Shown here piece after piece: positions 5,849-40,259 of a DNA stretch of 40,259 bases. This DNA is from a virus. Every line of letters starts with the position of its first letter. The first letter of the stretch is position 1. The translations under genes were made by a program, and so were the position numbers. The DNA lies in IMG/VR virus record IMGVR_UViG_3300021197_001456, positions 1 through 40,259 of that record; one strand, 5' to 3'. The notes below the pieces were generated by a model. That model made no database searches. It was given only the letters and a program-made list of their open reading frames with translations, and had not been told where the DNA came from.

Positions 5849-6135
5849 TGAGTTATAAAGCTGGCCCAGAGCTAGGAGTAATAGAAGTTCATACAACAGA
5901 AGAAGGCGGCCATCCACCTGAGTTTTGGGCAAAACTTTGTATTGATAGAATTATTCAAACAAGCGAAGATGCTCCTGAACAAATACAAGAGCAAGTTAAA
6001 AATTACAAAGACAACATTACAAAAGTTATTGAACAATATATGCAAAATGCTATAAAATCTGATAGGATTACAATTAATAATAAATTAGATAAAAAAGGTT
6101 TAACGCAAGCTTCTGATTTAATTAGGAAACTATAA
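5842..6135 (+). CDS. Small acidic helical protein, hypothetical
   Basis: The 97-aa product has HPPEFWAKLCIDRIIQ, then a long amphipathic helix (PEQIQEQVKNYKDNITKVIEQYM) and a basic end. Proteins with this H-x-P-E-F-W pattern followed by helices occur in phage tail regions, but I know no function. AGGAGA 9 nt before the ATG at 5842 favours that start over 5848. The gene overlaps the end of the Rossmann-like gene by 7 nt and is probably coupled to it. Confidence 0.6.
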   Translation: MVMSYKAGPELGVIEVHTTEEGGHPPEFWAKLCIDRIIQTSEDAPEQIQEQVKNYKDNITKVIEQYMQNAIKSDRITINNKLDKKGLTQASDLIRKL

Positions 6136-7292: not shown

Positions 7293-10200
7293 ATGGCAAC
7301 TTATGTAAATGATTTAAGACTTAAAGAAATAGCAACTGGTGATGAGTCAGGCACTTGGGGTTCAAGCACCAACACCAACTTAGAATTAATTGCAGAAGCG
7401 TTTAGTTACGGCACTGAGGCCATCACTACTAACGCTGATACGCATACAACCACTATAGCAGACGGAGCAACAGATCCTGGCAGATCTATGTACTTAAAAT
7501 ATACGGGTACTTTAGATTCAGCTTGTACTATTACGATTGGCCCTAATACAGTTTCTAAAGTATGGATTGTTGAGAATGCTACTAGTGGCTCTCAAAATAT
7601 TATTCTTTCTCAAGGCTCAGGTGCAAATATCACCATTCCAGCAGGCGATGTCAAAGTTGTTTACTCAGACGGAGCAGGAAGTGGAGCAGCATTTTTTGAT
7701 GCTTTTGCTAGTTTAAATATAGGTACTACTTCTGGAGGTGCAACTGTTAATGGCATATCTAGTAAAGCTTTTGGCACAGACTCCATAATGCTTGGAGATT
7801 CAACTACAGGCACGATTGATGCAGCTAACTATAATACAGGTTTAGGTGTTGATGTTTTTGCAGCTTTAACTAGTGGTGATAACAATATAGCAATAGGTAA
7901 TAATGCTCTAAACGATAATACTACTGGTTCATTTAACACAGCAGTAGGAGCTTTTTCTCTTGATTCTAATTCAACAGGAGCTAACAACACTGCAATTGGA
8001 AGTGCAGCTTTAGGAACAAACACTACAGGCGATGATAATACTGCTGTTGGTCAAGGATCTTTAACCGCAAACACCACAGCTGATAAAAACGTAGCAGTAG
8101 GAAAAAATGCTATGTTAAGCACTACTACAGGTGGTAGTAATGTTGCTATAGGAGATGGAGCCTTAGATGCAAACACTACAGGTACTGTAAATGTTGCAGT
8201 AGGTAGAGATGCCCTTGGTTCTAGTACTACACAATCTGCAAATACAGCTATCGGCTATGGTGCTTTAAGAGACAATACATCAGGTACTAGTAATGCTGCT
8301 TTAGGTTATTTGGCATTAGAAGAAAATACAACTGGAAGTTACAATATAGCAGTTGGTGCAGAAGCTATGGAAGAAAACACTACAGGTGTTGGTAATATAG
8401 CAATCGGCTACCATGCTTTAGAAGAAAATACAACTGCTTCTTATAATACCGCAGTTGGTTATGAAACTCTGACATCAAACACTACAGGAGCTAATAACAG
8501 CGCATTTGGTTATCGTGCTTTAGATGCAAATACAACTGGCGGTCAAAACGTGGCAGTTGGAGATAATGCTTTAGGGGCTAATACGACAGCTTCATACAAC
8601 ACTGCTCTTGGTACGGACACTTTAAAAGTCAATACAACAGGCAGTAACAATGTTGCTACAGGTGGTTTTGCACTAACAGCTAATACTACAGGTGCTGCCA
8701 ATGTTGCTATGGGCTATCAAGCATTAAAATCCAATACTACTGCTTCTAATAATACTGCTATTGGTGACCAAGCATTAGAACTAAACACCACAGGCTCAGG
8801 AAACACCGCAGTAGGAAGATTGGCACTAGATGCTAACACCACAGCATCAGAAAATACAGGTGTAGGAAATAGTGCTTTAGGTGCAAATACTACAGGGTCT
8901 AACAACACCGCAGTAGGGTCATCAGCTCTTGTCTCTAACACAACAGGTGATTACAACGTAGCAATGGGTTCACAAACCCTAGACGCTAATACAACAGGAG
9001 ATAATAATGTATCTATTGGTTATCAAGCCCTCACAACTGAAACAACAGGTAATAAAAGTGTTGCTATTGGTTTTGAAGCTTTAAAAACTCAAAACTTTAC
9101 AGGTGATACTGATTCTCATAACACTGCTGTAGGAAACAGAGCAGGTGCTTTACTTTCCACAGGTCTTAACAACACCCTTATTGGTAGTCAAGCTGGTGAT
9201 GCTATTACAACAGCACAATCAAACGTTGCAGTTGGATATGATGCTTTAGGCGATACCACAACAGGAGGTGATAATACTGCTGTTGGTGAGTTAGCACTAG
9301 CAAACAATACAACTGGTATTAGAAACACAGCTTTAGGTAGTAGTGCTTTGTTTACCAAAACTACAGGTAATGACAATACAGCAATTGGTACAGGTTCTTT
9401 GTATTCTACTACAACTGCTTCATTTAATACAGGAGTTGGTCAAAACGCACTAGAATTAAACACCACAGGAGCAAGCAACGTAGCAGTAGGTTATCAAGCT
9501 CTTAAAGCTAATACCACAGCAAACAACAATACAGCAATAGGAGGTTCTTCTCTTTTAGCAAACACCACAGGTGCTACAAACACAGCAGTAGGAGCTAATT
9601 CCTTAGACGCTAACACTACAGGAGGAAACAACGTAGGGATTGGTTATGATGCTTTAACTGATAACACCACAGGTGATGAAAACGTAGCATTAGGAACAAG
9701 TGCATTAGCAAACAACACTACAGCTTCTGATAACACAGCAGTTGGTCATGGTGCTATGTTTGATAACACAACTGGTATTGAGAACGTAGCAGTTGGTTAT
9801 CTTGCTTTAGGCGACAATACTACAGCAGATCAAAACACAGCAGTTGGTTTTTTAGCTTTAAGATCAAATACCACAGGCACTAGAAACACCGCTCTTGGTT
9901 ATAAGGCAGGAACTGCTATCACCACAGGTGATTTTAATATTGGAATAGGAAGAGCAGCAATAGAAAATGTTACAACAGCAGATGGAAACACTGCGGTAGG
10001 TGTTTCGGCAGGTGCACAAACTACAACAGGTGCTAATAACACCGCAATGGGTTACCTAGCTTTAAATCTAAACACCACAGGTGCTAATAATGTAGCTATG
10101 GGTAAAGATGCTTTAGCAGCAAACACAACAGCTTCAAACAATACCGCTATTGGATTAGATGCAATGACATTAAACACCACTGGTACAGGTAATGTAGCGA

Positions 10201-11480
10201 TGGGGCAAAATGCTTTAGCAACAAACACAACAGGTGGAACTAATGTTGCTATAGGTCAAGGTGCATTAGACGCTAATACTACTGCTTCTAACAATACAGC
10301 AGTAGGAACTGATGCTTTAGGAGCAAACACCACAGGAACTGAAAATACAGCAGTAGGCATGAGTTCTACGGCAGCCAATACAACAGGAAATTATAATACT
10401 GCATTAGGTAAAGGTACTCTGGAATCAACAACAACAGGTTCTAGTAATACTTCTGTTGGAACTAATGCTTTGCAGAACAATACAACCGCAAATAACAATA
10501 CCGCAGTAGGCTCTTCTGCTCTTATAGCAAACACCACAGGAGCAGATAATGTAGCAGTTGGTCAAGGAGTATTACAAGCTAATACTACAGCAGCTAATAA
10601 TACTGCGGTTGGCAGAGATTCTTTGTCATCAAACACCACAGGTGCTCAAAACAATGCTTTTGGCAAAAACGCCATGAGAGACAATACAACAGGTGCAGAT
10701 AATGTTGCTATGGGTGAAAACGCTTTATTAGAAAATACCACAGCATCTAACAACACTGCAATCGGTTCAAATGCTTTACAACAAAACACCACAGGTCATT
10801 CAAATACAGCTGTTGGAAGAAATGCTATGGATGCCCTTGATTCAGGTTCTGAAGCTGTTGCTGTAGGCGCACATGCTTTAACTGCTGCTACTGGAGGCAG
10901 TAATACAGCAGTAGGCTACAAAGCTGGTGAAGATGTAACAAGTGGTACAAATAACTTTTTCTTTGGTAAAGAAACAGGTCGGTCAGGAAGTCCAGGTGGT
11001 TCAGTTACTTCTGGAAACAATGAAGGTGTTTTAGGTAACTCAAATGTAAGTAAAATTAACGTACAAGTTTCTTTAACAGTAGCTTCTGATGAAAGAGATA
11101 AAACAGACTTTCAACCTTTAAACACAGGATTGAACTTTGTAAATCAATTAGCACCATATACTTACTATTGGGATAAACGTACTAATTATGTTAATTGGGA
11201 TGCAAACCCTGACACTGACTTAAATAGTATTACTCACGATGGCACACACAAAGAAGATTGGATGGATGTTGGATTTAAAGCACAAGATGTTATTGCTTTA
11301 GAAGAGGCACTTAATCATAAGATTTCAGACAAAACAAATCTTGTTAGTAACCTTACAGGTGATGGTAAAATGTATCAATTACAGTATGAAAAGTTTGTAC
11401 CAATTCTAGTTAAAGCTTTACAAGAAGCTGATGATAAAATAGATGCTCTAACTACTAGAGTTGCAGCATTAGAAAGTTAA
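7293..11480 (+). CDS. Giant adhesin-type tail fibre with S74 intramolecular chaperone
   Basis: The 1395-aa product has three parts. Residues 1-60 (VNDLRLKEIATGDESGTWGS) resemble the virion-attachment end of marine phage fibres. Residues about 195-1217 are some 60 copies of a 17-residue unit close to G-x-x-NTAVG-x-x-ALxxNTT, the left-handed beta-roll repeat of YadA/Hep_Hag adhesin heads. The last 131 residues form a chaperone-of-endosialidase (Peptidase S74) domain starting SDERDKTDF, with the conserved Ser-Asp at 1265-1266. Family knowledge predicts trimerisation, then self-cleavage before Ser1265 to release the chaperone. It is probably the host-recognition fibre, and unusually long. Confidence 0.9.
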   Translation: MATYVNDLRLKEIATGDESGTWGSSTNTNLELIAEAFSYGTEAITTNADTHTTTIADGATDPGRSMYLKYTGTLDSACTITIGPNTVSKVWIVENATSGSQNIILSQGSGANITIPAGDVKVVYSDGAGSGAAFFDAFASLNIGTTSGGATVNGISSKAFGTDSIMLGDSTTGTIDAANYNTGLGVDVFAALTSGDNNIAIGNNALNDNTTGSFNTAVGAFSLDSNSTGANNTAIGSAALGTNTTGDDNTAVGQGSLTANTTADKNVAVGKNAMLSTTTGGSNVAIGDGALDANTTGTVNVAVGRDALGSSTTQSANTAIGYGALRDNTSGTSNAALGYLALEENTTGSYNIAVGAEAMEENTTGVGNIAIGYHALEENTTASYNTAVGYETLTSNTTGANNSAFGYRALDANTTGGQNVAVGDNALGANTTASYNTALGTDTLKVNTTGSNNVATGGFALTANTTGAANVAMGYQALKSNTTASNNTAIGDQALELNTTGSGNTAVGRLALDANTTASENTGVGNSALGANTTGSNNTAVGSSALVSNTTGDYNVAMGSQTLDANTTGDNNVSIGYQALTTETTGNKSVAIGFEALKTQNFTGDTDSHNTAVGNRAGALLSTGLNNTLIGSQAGDAITTAQSNVAVGYDALGDTTTGGDNTAVGELALANNTTGIRNTALGSSALFTKTTGNDNTAIGTGSLYSTTTASFNTGVGQNALELNTTGASNVAVGYQALKANTTANNNTAIGGSSLLANTTGATNTAVGANSLDANTTGGNNVGIGYDALTDNTTGDENVALGTSALANNTTASDNTAVGHGAMFDNTTGIENVAVGYLALGDNTTADQNTAVGFLALRSNTTGTRNTALGYKAGTAITTGDFNIGIGRAAIENVTTADGNTAVGVSAGAQTTTGANNTAMGYLALNLNTTGANNVAMGKDALAANTTASNNTAIGLDAMTLNTTGTGNVAMGQNALATNTTGGTNVAIGQGALDANTTASNNTAVGTDALGANTTGTENTAVGMSSTAANTTGNYNTALGKGTLESTTTGSSNTSVGTNALQNNTTANNNTAVGSSALIANTTGADNVAVGQGVLQANTTAANNTAVGRDSLSSNTTGAQNNAFGKNAMRDNTTGADNVAMGENALLENTTASNNTAIGSNALQQNTTGHSNTAVGRNAMDALDSGSEAVAVGAHALTAATGGSNTAVGYKAGEDVTSGTNNFFFGKETGRSGSPGGSVTSGNNEGVLGNSNVSKINVQVSLTVASDERDKTDFQPLNTGLNFVNQLAPYTYYWDKRTNYVNWDANPDTDLNSITHDGTHKEDWMDVGFKAQDVIALEEALNHKISDKTNLVSNLTGDGKMYQLQYEKFVPILVKALQEADDKIDALTTRVAALES
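7875..10943 (+). repeat. About 60 tandem 51-bp coding repeats (17-residue beta-roll unit)
   Basis: The 51-bp unit repeats in frame for 3.07 kb. Register is broken only near repeats 24-25, which carry a 23-residue and a 15-residue unit, and once near the end. DNA copies are diverged, with codons varying freely, so the array is old or recombination is balanced by drift. Units beginning with Ala rather than Gly recur every third unit in parts of the array (units 12, 15, 18; 39, 42, 45, 48; 54, 57), a sign of 153-bp block duplications. Confidence 0.92.
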
Positions 11481-31519: not shown

Positions 31520-31855
31520 TTAACTTTCACTACTTTCTTCAATAGGACCAAAGATAGACTCGAAGTCTAGCTTACCGCCAGATGCTTTAATAATTTTTTT
31601 AGCTTGTTTAATTGAAGGCTGTCTTAAACCATACCTCCAAGCTTTGGTTGATGCTGCTGAGCAGTCAAATAATTCTGCCGCAGGTTCTGTTCCAATAAAT
31701 TCTATATACTTCTTTAAAGTTATTCTTTGCACTTCCCTCTCCTTATGTTCAGGTTCTAGATTTTTGGTTTTAAATGATTTAAGCTCTTCATTGGTTAGGT
31801 TTTTCAACCTCCAGAGATAATTCACTCTCCATTGATTTTGGTCTACTTCTCTCAT
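31520..31855 (-). CDS. Cro/YdaS-like HTH regulator
   Basis: The 111-aa product ends in AAELFDCSAASTKAWRYGLR QPSIKQAKKI, the HTH pattern of YdaS/Cro-type proteins in which a small helix pair recognises DNA. The N-terminal half is charged and helical. ATG at 31855 has a GGAA 7-8 nt upstream; a GTG at 31885 is in frame but lacks a ribosome site. It heads the primase operon and faces the Sak4 operon across a short divergent region, so it may control both. Confidence 0.75.
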   Translation of the reverse strand: MREVDQNQWRVNYLWRLKNLTNEELKSFKTKNLEPEHKEREVQRITLKKYIEFIGTEPAAELFDCSAASTKAWRYGLRQPSIKQAKKIIKASGGKLDFESIFGPIEESSES

Positions 31856-31888
31856 TTTACATTCCGTTAAATATTTAATGTTCACACA

Positions 31889-39474: not shown

Positions 39475-39750
39475 ATGAAGATAGTAAAAATGGATAAAGG
39501 CCCACCCACCATCGAAGAAGGTCGACGCAGACTCGATACCCTCTTTGAAGATTTCATATCTAGAGGAGCCGACGCAGAGTTTACCGCCTTACTTATCTTT
39601 ACTTACGGCGTAACAGAAACTCTCAATTACGCGAAATCGGTCGAAGAAGGCGTTAGAAAAATAGACGACATCCTCAACGCAGAGTTTGGCCTAGAAAAAG
39701 AAATCGTTTTTACCCCAGAGTTCTTAACAGAAGAAAAAGATCCCGAATAG
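39475..39750 (+). CDS. Hypothetical early protein, 91 aa
   Basis: The product (MKIVKMDKGPPTIEEGRRRL, then TLFEDFISRGADAEFTALLI and VEEGVRKIDDILNAEFGLEK) is helical. No domain recognised. There is no good ribosome site; ATG 39475 or the in-frame ATG 39490 could serve, and a TACACT just upstream could be a -10 box for a near-leaderless message. Its stop is followed directly by the TTTTGTCA array. Confidence 0.55.
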   Translation: MKIVKMDKGPPTIEEGRRRLDTLFEDFISRGADAEFTALLIFTYGVTETLNYAKSVEEGVRKIDDILNAEFGLEKEIVFTPEFLTEEKDPE

Positions 39751-40080
39751 TTTTGTCACACTTTTCTGACAAAAGTACCCCCTTTTGGGTCGAATTTGGC
39801 TATATTTGGCATAGTTTTGTCAGAGTGTCAGAAGTCTCTGACAGCTGGAAACGTGATAAGAATGCACTTTAGGCGTTTTGTCATTTTGTCAGGATACCCT
39901 TAAAATAACCCTCATATTTACCTCATAATCGTAAAAGAAAAGGGTAGGTAAGAAAAAGTATGACAAAAGTATATATATAGGTATAAATATAATAAAATAT
40001 ATATAATTATTTATTGTATTAGTAGTGCTTAGAGAGGTGTTGATAGTTTTGTCAGAGTTTTGTCAAGAGCTCTGACAAAA
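39751..40080. repeat. TTTTGTCA array: candidate replication origin or multi-site operator
   Basis: Nine exact copies of the octamer TTTTGTCA or its complement lie in 330 bp: forward at 39751, 39815, 39876, 39884, 40047 and 40058; reverse at 39767, 39961 and 40073. Copies form dyads: TTTTGTCA-N8-TGACAAAA (39751-39774), TGTCAGA-N4-TCTGACA (39826-39843), and an 11-bp perfect inverted repeat TTTTGTCAGAG/CTCTGACAAAA (40047-40057 with 40070-40080) enclosing another copy. Two copies are in direct tandem at 39876-39891. No gene fits this stretch. Iterons plus dyads beside an AT-rich tract suggest an origin or a repressor array. Confidence 0.75.
39969..40020. other. Extreme AT-rich tract next to the TTTTGTCA array
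   Basis: Over about 50 bases there are only about three G or C residues (GTATATATATAGGTATAAAT followed by further AT). It sits between repeat copies at 39961 and 40047. Such tracts serve as DNA unwinding elements at origins, but also make promoters likely, so the function is open. Confidence 0.6.
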
Positions 40081-40092
40081 GTAGGAGAAGAT

Positions 40093-40259
40093 ATGTATAA
40101 ATTAGTAAAAAAATGTCGGGAGGTTTTACCCTCAGAAGTTATCGATTTGCTAGAAAGACCAGATGTAGTAGAATTAGTTAGGTATTTTAACGGAACGCTA
40201 ATTAGCTATAAGGTGAGAGATGAGCAAGGACGAATCGAGGATCAGACAGAAAGTGAAGG
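40093..40259 (+). CDS. Partial CDS at window end, hypothetical
   Basis: ATG 40093 follows AGGAGAAG (40083-40090) and the frame stays open for 55 codons to the window edge. The product starts MYKLVKKCREVLPSEVIDLL, then VVELVRYFNGTLISYKVRDE, with an alpha/beta look. The repeat dyad at 40047-40080 lies directly in front of its ribosome site, so its transcript is likely to be controlled by whatever binds that dyad. Family unknown. Confidence 0.55.
   Translation, partial: MYKLVKKCREVLPSEVIDLLERPDVVELVRYFNGTLISYKVRDEQGRIEDQTESE

Follow-up and report, generated by a model that had tools for sequence, protein, structure and literature searches.

The last few hundred bases of a linear IMG/VR virus fragment from a marine virus (40,259 bp, analyzed over its full length and referred to here as the window) carry a dense array of one octamer, TTTTGTCA, upstream of a gene for a small terminase (terS). 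Based on comparative sequence analysis and on analogy with SPP1 pac and lambda cosB, the array is probably a site of the pac or cosB type that is recognized by the terS product and at which genome packaging starts. We favor this reading over a replication origin or a repressor site, both of which are weaker explanations. As the record stops just inside terS, the window alone does not reveal the gene that accounts best for the array.

Scanning the whole 40,259-bp record confirmed the central observation of an initial annotation of this DNA, namely nine exact copies of the octamer within 39751–40080 (six on the plus and three on the minus strand) and none elsewhere. Dinucleotide shuffles of the whole record contained a mean of 3.36 copies scattered across 40 kb, compared with nine in 330 bp in the real sequence, and, of all 8-mer clusters in the record, the array and a repeat within a coding region (at 22.7 kb) are the two densest. 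The stop codon at 39748–39750 of the preceding gene (39475–39750) directly adjoins the array on one side; on the other, it is limited by the ribosome site of the following ORF (Table 1). The finer architecture described earlier is likewise real: dyads at both edges, of which the right one (TTTTGTCAGAG/CTCTGACAAAA at 40047–40057 and 40070–40080) encloses a third octamer copy, a central dyad reading TGTCAGA-AGTC-TCTGACA, and a direct tandem whose second copy is TATTGTCA in many relatives. By eye, two interleaved helices could pair within ACCCTT...TTACCT...AAGGGTAGGTAA (39895–39951); searches for tRNAs and Rfam families returned no matches. Elsewhere in the window, positions 7293–11480 hold the largest gene of the record, whose 1395-aa putative product contains many TG-x-NNTAxGxxAL-like repeats and is probably a fibre-type virion protein.

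Table 1 Features of the octamer array and the start of the downstream operon, in window positions.
Feature	Position	Strand	Basis
TTTTGTCA array, nine exact sites; proposed TerS recognition (pac/cosB-like) site	39751–40080		Precedes terS in all relatives whose upstream sequence is long enough
Left inverted octamer pair	39751–39774	39751–39758 (+), 39767–39774 (−)	Exact matches
Octamer 39815–39822 (+), then TGTCAGA-N4-TCTGACA dyad	39815–39844		Dyad variable among relatives
Direct octamer tandem TTTTGTCATTTTGTCA, 8-bp spacing	39876–39891	+	Exact matches
Sigma70-like TTGTCA-N17-TAAAAT with an octamer as −35; possible small ORF–terS promoter	39878–39906	+	Weak, consensus match only
AAGGGTAGGTAA, a conserved element (GGG..GGTAA) outside the octamers, immediately preceding the isolated minus-strand one	39940–39951	+	Conserved in relatives
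Isolated octamer between conserved element and AT-rich tract	39961–39968	−	Exact match
AT-rich spacer, length varying among relatives in ~10-bp steps	39971–40022		Sequence composition, relatives
Right cluster: two plus-strand octamers 11 bp apart, then a minus-strand octamer (11-bp perfect inverted repeat)	40047–40080		Exact matches
Conserved small ORF, ATG at 40093, cut by window end	40093–40259	+	Open reading frame, relatives
terS (small terminase) start, ATG at 40220, cut by window end	40220–40259	+	Complete in L011:10128–10784

The full-length TerS of the relative L011, our reference for the window type, comprises 218 aa; where they align, it shares 32–33% identity with the proteins annotated as small terminases in pelagiphages HTVC027P and HTVC023P. 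Taken alone, this protein had no significant family match; other members of the group matched phrog_51 or phrog_1595, both denoting the terminase small subunit (E = 3.4e-4 and 1.1e-3), HTVC023P TerS matched phrog_51 (E = 1e-6), and Terminase_2 was hit by six of 16 alignment members. Homology to known small terminases thus indicates the downstream gene to encode a small terminase, which is present in exactly one copy in 19 of 20 array-bearing records. Small terminases are expected to combine an HTH with long oligomerization helices. Structure prediction placed helices at residues 38–49, 55–62 and 67–73, within a putative HTH at about residues 36–75, and then at 81–118 and 122–137, where pLDDT is mostly ~70–85, in a model that is of low confidence overall (mean pLDDT 59.9) and had no match among solved structures in the PDB. 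A profile search of solved structures returned a small terminase as the best, non-significant match (E = 0.44), and no TerS relatives that might point to a bacterial host or a prophage were found in GTDB genomes. In longer records, TerL follows ~8–10 kb beyond terS and is 58–60% identical to that of HTVC023P, a protein without a match in the window record. The ~8–10 kb between the two genes partly consists of opposite-strand genes (records G001, G002, G004, G005, G008 and G009), and many contigs of the group stop shortly past terS.

The initial annotation had staked its proposal on the octamer being rare elsewhere and on its retention at the same place in related phages, and both are borne out. 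Relatives were recovered by protein queries that did not involve the motif (28 loci via the small ORF, 80 via TerS), and the array was present at all of these loci wherever upstream DNA was available. In the 58 distinct relatives among them, all of which keep the array upstream of terS, there are 8–10 octamers per 520 bp (one per 62 bp) at this position, as against nine octamers in the 401 kb outside the arrays of the same loci (one per 44,551 bp); among the matches listed, long records contain a single dense cluster. Across 41 non-redundant arrays we counted 8.44 exact sites per array versus 0.046 expected from Markov-simulated sequence, and a total of 346 exact sites versus only 79 with one mismatch. 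TerS identity drops to 69% within this close-relative set, the sequence between the octamers is strongly diverged, and the site profile extends weakly beyond the word itself (tAGTTTTGTCA[GT]A). Three loci (L023, L024 and L036) have a different gene upstream and retain the array.

Three of the spacers between sites fall into discrete length classes (46–48/57–59/69, 77–78/86–88/98 and 84–86/73–74/64 bp) that differ by ~10–11 bp, or about one helical turn, a value of 61 in one clade being off phase. The spacer phase score of 0.88 at 10.5 bp was reached by none of 20,000 random trials and compares with 0.05 for a control distance (last site to terS), with the length classes having been set after the data were seen, the relatives being non-independent, and a listed value of 55 being an artefact that skips a one-mismatch site. 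For these three reasons, near-helical phasing of the spacers lends the packaging reading support without deciding the matter.

A second array with a different word occupies the same place in pelagiphages of the HTVC023P type, whose TerS is homologous to that of the window type at about 30% identity (25–31%). Upstream of 67 distinct terS genes of this type, the top repeated word apart from A-runs was CTAGGAAA/TAGGAAAA; in the 42 non-redundant upstream regions of sufficient length, CTAGGAAA occurred in 3.4 exact copies per 400 bp, compared with 0.03 expected, and in the HTVC023P genome five of its seven copies belong to the cluster upstream of terS. The words of the two types (aligned as CTGACAAAA and CTAGGAAAA) are mutually exclusive, with no TTTTGTCA in HTVC023P-type arrays and no CTAGGAAA in window-type arrays. 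The arrays are alike in position, in their homologous TerS and TerL, and in spacings of 8, 11 and 20–21 bp: among close same-strand copies, 11, 8 and 20–21 bp lead in the HTVC023P type and 11, 9, 20 and 8 bp in the window type, 11 bp being the commonest in both. Besides the word, HTVC023P-type arrays differ in their fewer exact copies (3.4 versus 8.4 per array) and in a flanking 27-nt inverted repeat, seen in HTVC023P with arms 167 bp apart (L193:5718–5744 and 5912–5938). A 36-nt inverted repeat (L275:1607–1642 and 1774–1809; arms 131 bp apart) lies upstream of terS in DSL-LC04, and CTGGGAAA replaces CTAGGAAA in some HTVC023P-type arrays (terS upstream regions of L262 and L204), possibly as a third word. 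No comparable exact 8-mer array was found upstream of the more distant TerS homologs of HTVC027P, 023Pt_psg01 and DSL-LC04. We give roughly even chances to the more specific idea of a packaging-site code, in which TerS would recognize a strict 8-bp word at many positions of an array phased with the helix. Relatives would then have exchanged the word and maintained its spacing, TerS and word co-evolving as a lock does with its key.

The initial annotation had seen in the repeats a possible replication origin, at which an initiator (e.g., the HTH protein encoded at 31520–31885 or the prim-pol) would bind the octamers as iterons and melt the AT-rich tract. Iterated sites next to an AT-rich tract, here with near-helical phasing, do count against the packaging reading in that they also fit an origin; in addition, of 20 array-bearing records, 18 encode prim-pol and 17 the HTH protein, and cumulative GC skew has a local minimum near the array. 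However, nearly all close relatives carry both genes, so that their co-occurrence does not discriminate, and the skew, put forward earlier as a check, turned out to be uninformative, since it tracks gene direction, including a short plus-strand block at 32–33 kb. Prim-pol is also ~8 kb away from the array, whereas terS is always adjacent. A comparison of modules in four cultured phages, scanned by exact words such that degenerate iterons would escape, bears on this more directly. HTVC023P has an array and matches nine window ORFs, all from the structural half, with no match to the replication ORFs of the window (prim-pol, HTH protein, SSB and helicase). In Pseudoalteromonas phages C7 and H40/1, conversely, prim-pol, SSB and helicase find matches (as does a nuclease, marginally, in H40/1), whereas structural ORFs do not, and neither phage has any dense 8-mer cluster. 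Roseobacter phage CRP-902, finally, matches both halves and gave no TerS match; a scan of 50,000 of its 51,954 bases found no array. In this small sample of cultured phages, the array is thus inherited with terS rather than with the replication module, and changes with the TerS lineage; co-inheritance with an initiator, as for an iteron origin, is absent from HTVC023P, C7 and H40/1, while the close relatives carry both. We consider an origin unlikely, and the Cro/YdaS-like HTH protein, previously suggested as one candidate binder, loses ground with it, as HTVC023P has an array and no match to this protein. What stands of the earlier proposal is a well-supported multi-site protein-binding array with a plausible operator role, as the array overlaps the putative downstream promoter and the ribosome site; the origin is not supported, given that the array follows the terS family.

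An operator alone, through which a repressor (TerS, the product of the small ORF or some other protein of the phage) would control the small ORF–terS operon with no part in packaging, appears slightly less probable still. The right cluster lies directly against the ribosome site of the ORF at 40093, in agreement with the earlier placement of the last dyad, the last octamer contains the start codon of this ORF in one clade, and a promoter-like TTGTCA-N17-TAAAAT lies within the array. Yet nine sites in 330 bp with length-constrained spacers far exceed the needs of a simple operator, no array is found elsewhere in the genome, and 14 of 41 relatives gave no promoter-like match. Moreover, all 41 non-redundant relatives have the small ORF (L011:10001–10171; ~38–56 aa with an LLE-x-P-DVV-like stretch) between array and terS, but HTVC023P, which nevertheless has an array, lacks it. 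Binding sites for host PhoB are very improbable and were rejected: TTTTGTCAGAGTTTTGTCA does contain TGTCA at 11-bp spacing, reminiscent of the CTGTCAT-like repeats that recur every 11 bp in a pho box, but the site profile is not CTGTCAT-like (four T's in the invariant core, and mostly G instead of T after TGTCA), inverted and 8-bp spaced copies occur, and the word found at this place in HTVC023P-type arrays is unrelated.

Packaging initiation, by comparison, agrees with the location of the array at or next to terS and with its being the only dense site of its kind in the genome. In the mechanism we propose, a TerS oligomer would use several of its subunits to bind TTTTGTCA words to either side of the AT-rich spacer, folding the DNA into a single nucleoprotein complex. 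This complex would recruit TerL to cut close by, the likeliest place being between the left cluster and the right one; the AT-rich tract and the GGG..GGTAA element, flanked by the octamers, are where the cut might be sought. Contig ends near the array, taken as a proxy for virion ends, were scattered and revealed no fixed virion terminus, which counts against the packaging reading, as do the low-confidence TerS model and the lack of comparable arrays upstream of the more distant TerS homologs. Bound TerS would probably also restrict its own expression, with the array probably covering the terS promoter; we propose such autoregulation because the small ORF–terS operon starts where the right cluster ends and an octamer provides the −35 of the promoter-like match.

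Repeated TerS sites as such are already known. In phage P1 pac, hexamer repeats flank the cut next to a packaging recognition gene; like the window array, it has one short word repeated several times to either side of a central region, and it differs in the word and its length. In contrast to P1 pac, we know of no link to methylation for the window array. The pac site of SPP1 has direct repeats that span the promoters and the start of terS (PMC4737164), and in it TerS-bound regions flank the initial cut and the DNA is bent (PMC4737164, PMC4856287). SPP1/SF6 pac (pacL-pacC-pacR) thereby resembles the window array in its direct repeats at the terS promoters and start; however, the TerS-bound pacL and pacR of SPP1 share no identity and the DNA-binding domain of SF6 TerS binds its repeats non-specifically, whereas window-type arrays consist of one strict, invariant 8-mer in 7–11 copies. 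Lambda cosB (R3-I1-R2-R1, beside cosN), with three TerS sites plus a bend and spacing that matters (PMC4856287), is similar in having several copies of one site next to terS and a bend-prone spacer among them, where the window has its AT-rich spacer; its three sites lie on one side of cosN, unlike the nine on both sides of the AT-rich tract. HK97 cos also involves sequence-specific TerS recognition (PMC11331095), but of one minimal site that is read while DNA exits through the channel of the ring rather than of a repeated word. New in degree, then, are the strictly invariant 8-mer in 7–11 copies and, in two related terminase lineages, the pairing of shared spacing with words that exclude each other. 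Our literature search, which covered few subscription papers, found no published description of the array, and the accessible part of a paper on HTVC023P-type genomes mentions terminase and repeats only in other contexts.

These natural TerS–word pairs bear on the debated question of how small terminases recognize DNA. With two TerS groups that have different conserved words and shared spacing rules, the question becomes directly testable by swapping domains and words. If the packaging-site code outlined above is true, some small terminases would gain their specificity through multi-site recognition of a word on folded DNA. Such arrays could also be used to recognize packaging sites in the sequences of uncultivated marine phages.
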